Assembly: GCF_900112525.1 (NCBI RefSeq) | Contig: NZ_FOMD01000001.1 | Location: 1,240,001-1,304,000, forward strand | DNA from: Klenkia taihuensis | GTDB lineage: Bacteria; Actinomycetota; Actinomycetes; Mycobacteriales; Geodermatophilaceae | Reading direction: 5' to 3' | DNA: 64,000 nt | Shown: positions 60,819 through 63,986 of the stretch, one piece after another | Numbering within the stretch: the stretch's first letter is position 1 | Layout: every line of letters starts with the position of its first letter | Program-made: the position numbers and the translations under genes | The notes under the pieces: generated by a model | What the model was told of the DNA's origin: nothing | Database searches by the model: none | What the model saw: only the letters and a program-made list of their open reading frames with translations

Positions 60819-61082
60819 TCACGCGCCGGTGGACCGCGACAACTGGCTCTTGACCTGCTCGATGCTGGGGTTGGTCAGCGCGGTGCCGTCGGCGAAGACC
60901 AGCGTCGGCACGGTCTGGTTGCCGCCGTTGGCCTGCATGACCAGCTGGGCGGCGGCCTCGTCGTGCTCGATGTTGACCTCGGCCCACTCGATGCCCTCGC
61001 GCTGCATGAGCTTCTTGAGGCGCACGCAGTACCCGCACCAGCTGGTGGTGTAAATCGTGACGGGCGCGGTGGCGGCGGTCAT
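60819..61082 (-). CDS. mrx1: mycoredoxin (glutaredoxin-like)
   Basis: An 87-aa glutaredoxin-fold protein: TIYTTSWCGYCVRLKKLM with Cys16/Cys19, then cis-Pro region TVPTLVFADG. The CGYC site matches mycoredoxin-1, which reduces protein–mycothiol disulfides. ATG 61082 has GGAGG upstream. It is divergent from uvrD2, as is Rv3198A–uvrD2 in mycobacteria. Confidence 0.92.
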   Translation of the reverse strand: MTAATAPVTIYTTSWCGYCVRLKKLMQREGIEWAEVNIEHDEAAAQLVMQANGGNQTVPTLVFADGTALTNPSIEQVKSQLSRSTGA

Positions 61083-61227
61083 GCTGTTGATCCTCCCTGT
61101 CGTGGGTGCCGGGGGCCTCTCGGGGTCCCCGGCTCGTGCTGGGGAGAACGCGGACGCCCTGGGGATGCTTCCCCGGACCGTCGTACCCGGCTGCCAGACT
61201 CGGGACGTGGCAGGAGGGGAGCGCGCG

Positions 61228-63222
61228 GTGACCGGGGCCGAGGCGGTGCTCGCCGGGCTCGATGACGAGCAGGGCACGGCGGCGGCCGCGGTGCGCGGGC
61301 CCGTCTGCATCCTGGCCGGCGCGGGCACCGGCAAGACCCGCACCATCACCCACCGGATCGCCTACGGCGTGCACACCGGCGTCTACGTGCCCGAGCAGGT
61401 CCTCGCGGTCACCTTCACCGCCCGCGCGGCGGGGGAGCTGCGCGGGCGGCTGTCCGGGCTCGGCGTGGGCGGGGTGCAGGCCCGCACCTTCCATGCCGCG
61501 GCGCTGCGCCAGCTGCGCTACTTCGCCCCCCGCGTGCTGGGCGGCCCGATGCCCGAGCTGGTGGAGAACAAGCTGCGGGTGGTCGCGGGCGCCGCGAGCC
61601 GGCACCGGCTGACCACCGACCGCACCTCCCTGCGCGACCTGGCCGGGGAGATCGAGTGGGCCAAGACCACCCTGGCCACCCCCGACGACTACCCCGCCCG
61701 GGCGCGGGCGGCCGGGCGCGAGACGCCTTTCGAGCCGGCCGCGGTCGCCGCGGTGTACGCCAGCTACGAGCAGGCCAAGCAGCGCGACGGCACGCTGGAC
61801 TTCGAGGACCTGCTGCTGGTCACCGCGTTCGCCCTCGAGGAGCACCGCGACGTCGCCACCGAGGTGCGCGGGCAGTACCGGCACTTCGTCGTCGACGAGT
61901 ACCAGGACGTCAACCCGCTGCAGCAGCGGCTGCTCGACGCGTGGCTCGGCGGCCGGGCCGAGCTGTGCGTGGTCGGCGACCCGCACCAGACCATCTACTC
62001 CTTCACCGGCGCCGACCCCGACTACCTGCTGGGCTTCCCCGACCGCTACCCCGACGCCGAGGTGGTGGCGCTGGAGCGCGACTACCGCTCCACCCCCGAG
62101 GTCGTCGGGCTGGCCAACCGCCTCATCGGCATGGCGCCGCGCCGGGCCGGCCTGCCCGGGCTGCGGCTGCGCGGCCAGCGGGCCGCCGGGCCCGAGCCGC
62201 GGTTCGTCGAGCACCCCGACGAGCCCACCGAGGCCGCCGCGGTCGCCGCCGCCTGCCGGGCGCTGGTCGACGCCGGGGTGCCCGCCGCCGAGATCGCCGT
62301 GCTGTTCCGGATCAACGCGCAGTCCCAGGTCTACGAGGCGGCGCTGACCGACGTCGGCGTCCCGTACGTGCTCAAGGGCGGGGAGCGGTTCTTCGAGCGG
62401 CCCGAGGTCCGCGAGGCGGTGCTGCTGCTGCGCGGGGCCGCCGCCGGCCGGGACGACGGCACCCCGCTGGTCACCGCCGTCCGCGACGTGCTGGCCTCCG
62501 TCGGGTGGGCCGAGCACCGGCCCCCGCCGGGCGGGGCCGCCCGCGACCGGTGGCAGTCCCTGTCGGCACTGGTCGACCTGGCCGTCGACCTGGTCGCCGA
62601 GCGGCCCGACCTGACCCTCGCCGGGTTCGTCGGCCACCTGGCCGAGCGCGCCGGCGCCCAGCACGCCCCGACCGTGCAGGGCGTGACCCTGGCCTCGATG
62701 CACGCCGCCAAGGGCCTGGAGTGGGACGCGGTCTTCGTCGTCGGGCTGGTCGACGGCGTCGTCCCCATCGCGCAGTCGCTGGCCCGGCCCGACGCCGTGG
62801 AGGAGGAGCGGCGGCTGCTGTACGTGGCCGTCACCCGCGCCCGCGAGCAGCTGACCCTGTCCTGGTCGCTGTCCCGCCAGCCCGGCGGCAAGCGACCGCG
62901 CTCCCGCAGCCGGTTCCTCGAGGGCCTGGCCCCCGACACCGGCACCCGGGTGCGCAGGCCGTCCGCGCGGCGCGCCGAGGTGGTCCTGGACGGCGCCGCG
63001 GGGGAGCTGTTCGACCGGCTGCGGGCCTGGCGCTCGGCCACCGCTGAGGCCGCGTCCGTGCCGGCCTACGTGGTGCTCAACGACGCCACGCTGCAGGCCA
63101 TCGCCGAGACCCGGCCGGGGTCGCTCTCCGAGCTGTCCGCACTCCCCGGGATCGGCGCCCGGAAGCTGGAGATGTACGGCGCCGACGTGCTCGCGACGGT
63201 CGGCGCCGACTCCTCCGCTTAA
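61228..63222 (+). CDS. uvrD2: DNA helicase UvrD2
   Basis: A 664-aa SF1A helicase with an HRDC domain at the end. Motifs: Walker A GAGTGKTRTI, VDEYQDVNPLQ, SMHAAKGLEWDAV, and HRDC (~590-660; LPGIGARKLEMYG). The tetra-cysteine module seen in mycobacterial UvrD2 before HRDC is absent. GTG 61228 is chosen: AGGAGGGGA (61212-61220) lies 7 bases upstream and it matches family starts. CAGACT (61195-61200) is the -10, predicting a start near 61207, where another GTG sits. The stop is TAA, the only one used by genes called here. Confidence 0.93.
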   Translation: MTGAEAVLAGLDDEQGTAAAAVRGPVCILAGAGTGKTRTITHRIAYGVHTGVYVPEQVLAVTFTARAAGELRGRLSGLGVGGVQARTFHAAALRQLRYFAPRVLGGPMPELVENKLRVVAGAASRHRLTTDRTSLRDLAGEIEWAKTTLATPDDYPARARAAGRETPFEPAAVAAVYASYEQAKQRDGTLDFEDLLLVTAFALEEHRDVATEVRGQYRHFVVDEYQDVNPLQQRLLDAWLGGRAELCVVGDPHQTIYSFTGADPDYLLGFPDRYPDAEVVALERDYRSTPEVVGLANRLIGMAPRRAGLPGLRLRGQRAAGPEPRFVEHPDEPTEAAAVAAACRALVDAGVPAAEIAVLFRINAQSQVYEAALTDVGVPYVLKGGERFFERPEVREAVLLLRGAAAGRDDGTPLVTAVRDVLASVGWAEHRPPPGGAARDRWQSLSALVDLAVDLVAERPDLTLAGFVGHLAERAGAQHAPTVQGVTLASMHAAKGLEWDAVFVVGLVDGVVPIAQSLARPDAVEEERRLLYVAVTRAREQLTLSWSLSRQPGGKRPRSRSRFLEGLAPDTGTRVRRPSARRAEVVLDGAAGELFDRLRAWRSATAEAASVPAYVVLNDATLQAIAETRPGSLSELSALPGIGARKLEMYGADVLATVGADSSA

Positions 63223-63264
63223 TTGCGTTGACCGCCTCCGACGGGGTCCCCTAACCTCACCTGC
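63219..63264 (+). promoter_or_regulatory. whiB7 promoter with AT-rich element
   Basis: TTGACC (63228-63233), an 18-bp spacer and TAACCT (63252-63257) make the clearest -35/-10 pair in the window; start near 63264. An AT tract TTAATT (63219-63224) lies 3 bp upstream of the -35, as required for WhiB7 AT-hook autoregulation. It overlaps the uvrD2 stop codon. Confidence 0.75.
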
Positions 63265-63327
63265 ACGCACCCACCGCGGGTAGCAGCCCACCGGCTGCAC
63301 CGCTCGGCCCCGGAAGGAGGGGTTCCC

Positions 63328-63552
63328 GTGATCGGCATCGACATCACCACGACCCCGTCCTGCACCGGGGTCGTCGTCGTGCGCGGCACCGGTCTGCCCG
63401 CTGCCCCGTTCGGCGCCACCGGTCTGCCGACCGGCACCGCCGTCCGGCTCCGCGTCGACGGGATGGCCGAGAAGGCCTACGGCGGCCGCACCGCCGTCCA
63501 GCTGAACAGCGACACCCCGGGTGACCTGCCACCGGGAGACCCACCGAGCTAG
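63328..63552 (+). CDS. whiB7 leader ORF (74 codons), probable attenuator peptide
   Basis: An ORF in the whiB7 5' leader with an excellent Shine-Dalgarno (AAGGAGG 63314-63320, 7 bases before GTG 63328). The peptide begins MIGIDITTTPSC and ends DLPPGDPPS; the Pro-Pro-Gly and Pro-Pro stretches are ribosome-pausing motifs, and use CCA and GGA codons that are rare in this genome. The stop codon TAG (63550-63552) lies inside a hairpin just before the terminator. It fits the upstream ORF of WhiB7/WblC attenuation; it could also encode a small functional protein. Confidence 0.6.
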   Translation: MIGIDITTTPSCTGVVVVRGTGLPAAPFGATGLPTGTAVRLRVDGMAEKAYGGRTAVQLNSDTPGDLPPGDPPS

Positions 63553-63562
63553 GCAGCTCGGT
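63543..63562 (+). promoter_or_regulatory. hairpin over the leader ORF stop codon
   Basis: Perfect 8-bp stem ACCGAGCT (63543-63550) / AGCTCGGT (63555-63562) with an AGGC loop. It includes the leader ORF TAG, so a ribosome there would keep it open. Confidence 0.65.
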
Positions 63563-63574
63563 CGGTCCCTCTCG

Positions 63575-63616
63575 AGGCCGCGGAACCCGGACAACCGGGA
63601 TCCGCGGCCTTCTTCG
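63575..63616 (+). terminator. whiB7 leader terminator (attenuator)
   Basis: A 10-bp outer stem AGGCCGCGGA (63575-63584)/(63601-63610), an A·A mismatch, and a 5-bp inner stem CCCGG/CCGGG with ACAA loop, followed by TCTTCG. It lies between the leader ORF and the whiB7 start and would end transcription before whiB7 unless prevented. Confidence 0.75.
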
Positions 63617-63692
63617 TGCCGTCGATCCCACCGACCTGACCGGTCGGCGGGACCTCCGCCGACCGGAGCACGACGAGGAGAGAGGTACGACC

Positions 63693-63986
63693 GTGCAGCA
63701 CACGATCGAGCGACCGGTGTCCGTCCCGCGCGCCGAGCTCGAGCGGGCGGAGCGGACGGCGTTGCCCTGCCGGGTGCAGGACCCGGACCTGTGGTTCGCC
63801 GAGGCGCCGGCGCAGCTGGAGCAGGCCAAGGAGTTCTGCGGGTCCTGCCCGCTGCAGGCCTCCTGCCTGGCCGGGGCGCTGGACCGCGGCGAGCCCTGGG
63901 GCGTCTGGGGCGGGCAGATCTTCGACCACGGGGTCGTGATCGCCCGCAAGCGCCCCCGCGGCCGCCCGCGCAAGGTCGCGGCATGA
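63693..63986 (+). CDS. whiB7: transcriptional regulator WhiB7 (WblC)
   Basis: A 97-aa WhiB protein. Four Fe-S cysteines: Cys26, Cys49, Cys52, Cys58 (CxxCx5C). GVWGG turn (residues 70-74) and a C-terminal AT-hook RPRGRPRK (87-94) are the marks of WhiB7, which binds sigma-A and turns on intrinsic drug-resistance genes. GTG 63693 has a GAGGAG-type Shine-Dalgarno. It is separated from its promoter by a ~430-nt leader with attenuator. Position after uvrD2 matches Rv3197A. Confidence 0.95.
   Translation: MQHTIERPVSVPRAELERAERTALPCRVQDPDLWFAEAPAQLEQAKEFCGSCPLQASCLAGALDRGEPWGVWGGQIFDHGVVIARKRPRGRPRKVAA

Follow-up and report, generated by a model that had tools for sequence, protein, structure and literature searches.

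WhiB7 sets intrinsic resistance to ribosome-targeting drugs in actinobacteria. In a 64,000-nucleotide stretch of Klenkia taihuensis DNA (hereafter the window; the nearest named relatives of its genome are Klenkia), the whiB7 gene is preceded by a leader that contains an upstream open reading frame (uORF), which raises the question of how translation of this uORF could control whiB7 and what its last codons are for. Very probably, the leader is a transcription attenuator of whiB7, of the kind known from whiB7/wblC uORFs. The mechanism itself has been described before; what is added here is a predicted pairing of the last ~11 uORF codons with the 5' arm of the terminator, which is conserved and covaries in the family Geodermatophilaceae. 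The comparison of relatives yields a strand-by-strand switch model that extends over much of the class, explains the conservation of the uORF end, largely by RNA, and predicts the positions at which a stalled ribosome would turn whiB7 on or off. The features of the leader and its gene are as follows.

63219-63257, + strand: promoter, with an AT-rich box TTAATT (63219-63224), 3 bp, a -35 box TTGACC (63228-63233), an 18-nt spacer and a -10 box TAACCT (63252-63257)
63314-63320, + strand: Shine-Dalgarno (SD) sequence AAGGAGG of the uORF, read from the sequence
63328-63552, + strand: uORF of 74 codons from the open reading frame (ORF) list, GTG start at 63328, TAG stop at 63550-63552
63517-63549, + strand: last 11 uORF codons, the putative 5' strand of the antiterminator (predicted pairing, recoding, covariation)
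63529-63546, + strand: Pro-Pro motifs at codons 68-69 (63529-63534, CCA CCG, with GGA next) and 72-73 (63541-63546, CCA CCG)
63533-63574, + strand: predicted stop hairpin (-24.4 kcal/mol on folding), made of an inner 8 bp and an outer helix, whose tip holds the stop codon
63575-63610, + strand: predicted intrinsic terminator stem-loop (-32.1 kcal/mol on folding), with a T-rich tail to about 63617
63693-63986, + strand: whiB7, 97 amino acids, with a WhiB domain, four Cys, GVWGG and an AT-hook-like RGRPRK

An earlier note on this DNA had described a promoter, an SD sequence, the 74-codon uORF with its stop codon in an 8-bp hairpin, a 15-bp terminator with a T-rich tail, and whiB7. This anatomy, which like the conservation and covariation reported below is read from the sequences, proved accurate. 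The perfect 8-bp hairpin (63543-63550/63555-63562) includes the first base of the uORF stop, and the terminator stem consists of 10+5 bp with one A.A mismatch. The uORF tail reads ...NSDTPGDLPPGDPPS, and a search of Pfam with the uORF gave no match up to an E value of 1. In the predicted antiterminator, CCGGGU at 63517-63522 pairs with ACCCGG at 63585-63590. The minimum free energy of the local fold was -58.7 kcal/mol, compared to -35.7 ± 3.5 for shuffled sequences, none of which was as stable (0/200). The whiB7 product matched the WhiB family of Pfam at 9.5e-16, its Cys residues and GVWGG were read from the translation, and its AT-hook match scored 14.5 bits, under the cut-off of 17.4.

According to papers that cite them, Lee et al. 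2022 (Mol Microbiol 117:179) described the uORF-mediated attenuator of whiB7/wblC in Streptomyces and Mycobacterium. According to an excerpt of PMC10727445, its anti-terminator forms from overlapping uORF and terminator sequence, and excerpts of PMC9618640, PMC11550727 and PMC13393426 also give the uORF attenuation mechanism. The Klenkia leader shares with this attenuator an SD-led uORF, a Rho-independent terminator, an antiterminator predicted from uORF plus terminator, a WhiB7 protein encoded downstream and an AT-rich box, as far as sequence can tell. The ilvB1 leader of Mycobacterium tuberculosis is also alike, with a uORF, a mutually exclusive terminator and antiterminator, and a ribosome at the stop that masks the antiterminator (excerpt of PMC13236596). 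However, ilvB1 senses named codons (LVVI), whereas no conserved sensing codons were seen in whiB7 uORFs.

Conservation and predicted pairing of the uORF tail

A search of 112 Geodermatophilaceae genomes gave 108 whiB7 matches in 107 genomes. Four matches at contig edges (G010, G075, G076 and G080) were excluded, leaving 104 upstream regions, two of which held no leader in the stretch (the truncated contig of G035 and the second whiB-like gene, a paralogue, of G048). The uORF ended in T-x-G-x6-P-x-[S/G] or near it in 98 of the 104 regions, and four further tails were assigned by hand, giving 102 family leaders. Tails of Klenkia and Modestobacter typically read TPGDLPP(G/R/E)DP(L/P)S and those of Blastococcus and Geodermatophilus TLGIHSPGRPQS. 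An SD-led start was present in 101/102 leaders, 79 of these 101 uORFs had the promoter pattern TTGAC-n-TA...T upstream, and 78 of the 79 promoters carried an AT-rich box (at least 5 A/T in 8 nt at -11 to -4 from the -35). The uORFs ranged from 63 to 134 codons, and their upstream part appeared variable by eye. The tail and hairpins named in the earlier note, whose absence from relatives would by its own terms have refuted its reading, are conserved; together with the covariation described below and the SD sequences and promoters of relatives, this bears out its reading of the leader as an upstream-ORF attenuator. One leader (L101, from the draft genome G096) has lost 1 nt of its uORF tail, a deletion that keeps the hairpin and alters frame and stop and is maybe a sequencing error; it was included in the counts although the deletion puts its listed tail out of frame with the upstream uORF.

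We then considered the tail as an RNA strand. When the RNA was folded from the 14th codon before the stop through the end of the terminator 5' arm, pairing of the tail with the arm was predicted in all 102 family leaders (more than 3 expected pairs each, mean of 10.8), and in 101 of them the fold had just one hairpin loop. The uORF strand is a copy of the terminator 3' arm; in most leaders of Geodermatophilus and Blastococcus, CGGGAUCC occurs in both. The register of this copy against the reading frame differs by 1 nt between Klenkia/Modestobacter and Blastococcus/Geodermatophilus; the amino acids differ and the pairing is the same. Real tails folded with a mean of -41.5 kcal/mol versus -28.8 kcal/mol for synonymous recodings, of which 256/4080 were as stable as the real tail; for the window leader, none was (0/40).

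The antiterminator alignment comprised 78 of the 97 distinct family leaders, and 84.1% of its cells pair. Changes on both sides of a pair were found in 65 cells, compared to 18.9 in shuffles that disregard relatedness (0/500 shuffles as high), and pairing fell to 23-51% when the partner was slid by 1 to 3 columns. The base at -3 is predicted to form an A-U pair in 90/102 leaders and a G-C pair in 8/102. For the terminator plus stop hairpin, 90.3% of cells paired, with 39 double-changed cells versus 9.7 in shuffles, all within the stop hairpin. The terminator stem, in which 99.1% of cells pair across the 78 sequences, is nearly invariant, with 9 of the 13 counted stem pairs unchanged, so that covariation cannot be shown for the terminator. 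Together, the conservation, recoding and covariation of the tail pairing suggest that the conserved uORF tail is largely an RNA feature, beyond any requirement of the peptide.

A covariance model built from the Geodermatophilaceae leaders gave one strong match in its own genome, the window leader (2.5e-18), and weak matches at 0.29 (same site, opposite strand) and 0.60. It matched in 174/298 genomes of the order and 161/296 genomes of the class. The gene downstream of the match was whiB7 in 60/60 loci read and in 156/158 of an enlarged set, whose two exceptions are truncated loci that the 60-locus reading placed beside whiB7. The 158 loci, all from outside the family, were hand-picked from the listed model matches and are not a random sample, and two regions that repeated earlier loci (L359 and L360) were left aside; 13 of the 158 lacked a confident uORF, leaving 145 for use (142 in the masking means below). 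In 141/145 uORFs, the stop ended 36-48 bases from the beginning of the model match. Rfam 15 gave no match in the window at the gathering score, its best weak match on the leader reaching 18.8 bits versus a cut-off of 52.

Leaders missed by the model partly follow the same plan in other letters. This was the case in 5 of the 12 loci read among 44 non-family named loci (Rhodococcus L069 and L072, Prescottella L084 and L087, and Antrihabitans L090); a terminator finder detected nothing in 6 of these 12 unmatched loci. By eye, about 11/15 leaders of the f8 family keep the plan, as do some other model-missed leaders of the class, for which 25 of 30 loci were looked at. Among the unmatched class genomes, 21/50 gave no whiB7 match. 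The labels Streptomyces-like, Micromonospora-like and Mycobacteriaceae-like used here are tentative and rest on relatedness and tail sequence; genus names within Geodermatophilaceae rest on matches to named contigs or on kinship codes.

Several side observations concern these leaders. In many Blastococcus and Geodermatophilus leaders (among L114-L187), a conserved CCGCGGCACCCGG lies just 3' of the T-rich tail; it could pair with the terminator 3' arm, and the weak opposite-strand model matches may reflect this. Second model matches in Micromonospora-like genomes were considered as new targets and rejected, since 14/15 (30 genomes) were the opposite strand of the same site; the 15th match, weak at 0.003, lies at a site of its own in G173. 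Several Mycobacteriaceae-like leaders among L361-L384 keep the plan of the attenuator with another arm (UCCGUG/CACGGA), and their uORF tails are Ala/Thr-rich; this may be relevant to the response to alanine starvation that is in print. In L400-L406, from small genomes (f40), terminator-like hairpins lie upstream of whiB7, some preceded by a short ORF.

Ribosome position along the uORF

The fold at each ribosome position was modelled with an assumed footprint from -14 to +16 of the P site at each codon, the remaining RNA being folded as far as the terminator 5' arm. With no pairs allowed across the ribosome, predicted tail-arm pairing in the window was 0.99-1.00 at printed codons 37-58 and 0.67 at codon 59, and it was at most 0.03 with the ribosome at codons 60-74, except at codon 63 (0.52). 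With the ribosome at earlier codons, either the tail or another portion of the uORF held the arm. The mean of 244 leaders (102 family and 142 other) showed the same edge, -17 to -14 codons from the stop.

These folds are consistent with the following switch. Transcription of the leader would begin at about 63263, and ribosomes would translate the uORF. A ribosome that reads to the end would cover the last codons, i.e., the antiterminator 5' strand, leaving the arm at 63575-63590 free; the terminator would then form and whiB7 would stay off. A ribosome held upstream of about codon 59, by a ribosome-targeting drug or a shortage of charged tRNA, would instead leave time for the tail to form one long hairpin with the stop hairpin and the terminator 5' arm, ahead of the synthesis of the 3' arm; polymerase would then read through into whiB7. 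WhiB7 may then boost its own promoter via the AT-rich box upstream of the -35, to which it presumably binds. Since tail-arm pairing is lost only near the uORF end in the model, stalling over most of the uORF should induce whiB7; the sensor would thus be most of the uORF and not a single codon. For the Klenkia leader itself, we infer the transcription start, termination, induction and autoregulation, as well as a short RNA ending near 63616, from the sequence.

Several results weigh against the attenuator reading or narrow it. All leader structures are predictions, and a consensus scanner listed 0 promoters and 0 terminators for the window; that the A.A mismatch made it miss the terminator is a guess. 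At equilibrium, the terminator plus stop hairpin is favored over the antiterminator (-64.7 versus -44.7), and therefore the switch must be kinetic, decided during transcription. In the masking model, printed stalls at codons 13, 25, 29 and 33 left the arm paired with other upstream uORF parts and not with the tail, and past the edge the remaining upstream RNA still sequestered the arm at a mean of 0.15-0.45. When pairs across the ribosome were allowed, pairing of the arm with upstream RNA stayed at 0.6-0.8 over the printed positions, also past the edge, and the edge was visible in tail pairing only. As for the tail, 491/4080 recodings attained the real number of tail-arm pairs, one of five covariation measures ("further pair types") gave 25 versus 27.8 in shuffles (490/500 as high), and the shuffles ignore relatedness. 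Finally, 124/298 genomes of the order and 135/296 of the class were without a model match, and 1/44 whiB7 loci of the Nocardia/Rhodococcus type matched at E below 0.01.

Pro-Pro codons near the uORF stop

The earlier note had proposed that pausing at Pro-Pro-Gly or Pro-Pro near the stop may set the default state. Pro-Pro-Gly occurred in 13/102 family tails (5/33 of the TPG type and 8/69 others), and we rejected it as a conserved arrest motif. Pro-Pro was found in 38/102 (29/33 TPG-type, 9/69 others), with 11 and 16 of 102 in the shifted frames. Outside Geodermatophilaceae, the last 12 codons contained an in-frame Pro-Pro in 100/145 uORFs, compared to 16 and 22 when the frame was shifted; three 12-codon segments upstream of these gave 0, 1 and 1, and at least half of the tails had Pro-Pro near the stop in 29/39 other families sampled. 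For 29 ORFs of the window, chosen by GC content at third codon positions (GC3) as codon and Pro-Pro baselines, the motif was present in 780/13540 12-residue segments and at 1/29 ORF ends. In the same ORFs CCA accounts for 29/1161 Pro codons and GGA for 34/1502 Gly codons, both rare as the earlier note had said; as independent proof of slow decoding this was rejected, the unpaired wobble bases being A/U-rich anyway.

Two positions within the last 12 codons account for most Pro-Pro pairs, -7 (in PPRGxPV tails and in those of Klenkia/Modestobacter) and -3 (in WSPPV tails). In the -3 group (type 2; 15 families, with 40 leaders for pairing and 41 for base conservation), the first Pro codon was predicted to be mostly unpaired over three structures (0.25-0.28 at base 1 and 0.34-0.44 at base 2). 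Each of these two bases was C in 39/41 leaders, and they deviated in 1/15 families versus 11/15 for the wobble base. With unpaired bases 1 and 2 conserved and the wobble base variable, the pattern looks like selection on the amino acid, in this one group.

Pro-Pro is not a requirement of the attenuator: Streptomyces-like and most Mycobacteriaceae-like leaders, the groups of the studied attenuators, do without it. The motif was absent from f33 (Streptomyces-like, 0/12), from f31 (0/10) and from f15 (0/2) and lacking in 10/11 f8 leaders with an SD-led ORF; the Klenkia leader, from another bacterial family than the Streptomyces and Mycobacterium systems, differs from them in its Pro-Pro tail. Model-missed leaders had it in 2/16 with an SD-led ORF (24 loci) and in 4/15 confident ones (25 loci), and those of the -3-group families f28 and f39 kept it in 3/4. 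The covariance model may favor C at the Pro-Pro columns and thereby bias the set of 145. The sequences are related, and the counts are not independent events; moreover, in tails with 23% Pro, independent Pro residues would give Pro-Pro in ~0.45 of tails, versus 0.69 seen.

What could these codons do? One explanation makes them a built-in brake, in which slow peptide bond formation or release near the stop would keep the antiterminator strand covered by the ribosome long enough for the terminator to be made, so that whiB7 is less leaky; we regard it as possible but doubtful. The other makes them a by-product of a C-rich strand that pairs with the G-rich terminator arm and reads as Pro in frame, to which we give about an even chance. 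Pairing constrains the bases of the tail beyond the peptide, as the by-product explanation expects, and CCUC(G)AGG-like elements are read in different frames across families, as PPRG, AWS or SAASG. An A/U wobble that is unpaired is also found beside the Pro codon (-10), so the rare CCA need not mean slow decoding. Yet codon -3 conserves its CC, mostly unpaired as it is, whereas similarly unpaired neighbors vary, and Pro-Pro arises from different RNA segments at two places, neither of which a by-product explains readily. The first of these speaks for the brake, the first Pro codon bases at -3 being conserved though weakly paired (0.25/0.43), as do the clustering at -7 and -3 and the excess of in-frame Pro-Pro at the end of the uORF. 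From excerpts of the literature, CCA is a slow tuning codon in Pro pairs of E. coli (PMC8129111), and in the absence of EF-P, termination at an intrinsic terminator rose when polyproline lay upstream (PMC5021804). On the other hand, strong pausing is not seen at most PPX motifs in E. coli (excerpt of PMC4140641), and the brake has to accommodate the scarcity of Pro-Pro-Gly, the 64/102 family leaders without Pro-Pro, the families and model-missed leaders that lack it, the possible C bias of the model, the expectation from Pro content and the relatedness of the sequences.

The location of Pro-Pro also bears on what the uORF senses. In the masking model the switch point comes before the Pro-Pro pairs, so a pause at these pairs should favor termination, and this position speaks against Pro-Pro as the drug sensor. 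It likewise makes a drug-dependent arrest peptide of the ErmCL or TnaC type, whose C-terminal residues would sense the antibiotic, very improbable: in the model, a ribosome that halts at the tail disrupts the antiterminator and should turn whiB7 off and not on, and the tail residues differ strongly between families, even though the tail is conserved within Geodermatophilaceae and Pro is conserved at the codon level in one group. An amino-acid-specific attenuator of the his or trp kind might be suspected because starvation also induces whiB7/wblC (excerpt of PMC11550727) and because the window uORF contains Thr-Thr-Thr and Val-Val-Val-Val. We consider it just as implausible, since upstream residues (by eye) and lengths vary and no fixed sensing codon was seen by eye, no formal test having been applied.

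Of the proposal that Pro-Pro-Gly or Pro-Pro sets the default state, the part that stands is that Pro-Pro recurs past the switch point, where it fits the off state; Pro-Pro-Gly does not stand. Restated, a Pro-Pro pair is found in many, not all, relatives, and its effect, if any, should be to hold whiB7 off. Our tentative suggestion, rather less than an even bet, is that selected Pro-Pro in the antiterminator strand of many Actinomycetes whiB7 uORFs is a hold-off brake, within a class-wide covarying element that has no Rfam 15 match and precedes whiB7 where read. If true, each normal round of translation would linger where antitermination is prevented. The earlier note had not seen a design with built-in stalling described, but a Pro-rich leader that governs transcription is in print, the Salmonella mgtL leader, so such stalling is not new in kind. 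There too, proline codons of the leader influence downstream transcription; however, the excerpt of PMC5021804 has the mgtL stall favoring read-through with Rho involved, whereas a Pro-Pro pause before whiB7 should favor an intrinsic terminator. Among the papers searched for whiB7 together with polyproline, one, PMC9973355, contained both, in two passages unrelated to the uORF, wblC with polyproline not having been searched separately; PMC10287673 contains whiB7 and EF-P, its excerpts dealing with attenuation.

Features around the leader

Two further features flank the leader elements.

61057-63222: upstream helicase ORF, UvrD-type with HRDC (Pfam)
63640-63666, + strand: 11-bp hairpin predicted by folding, in the interval between the terminator and whiB7

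The hairpin is perfect (CCGGUCGGCGG/CCGCCGACCGG), lies before the SD sequence of whiB7 and is without a T tail; it has the same letters in one other Klenkia relative (G006) and is changed in the remaining seven printed relatives. The AT-rich box of the leader promoter overlaps the TAA stop of the helicase ORF. Adjoining the helicase, an ORF at 60819-61349 on the - strand has an end that resembles mycoredoxin/glutaredoxin (WCGYC) by eye; mycoredoxin-uvrD2-whiB7 is the gene order known from mycobacteria.

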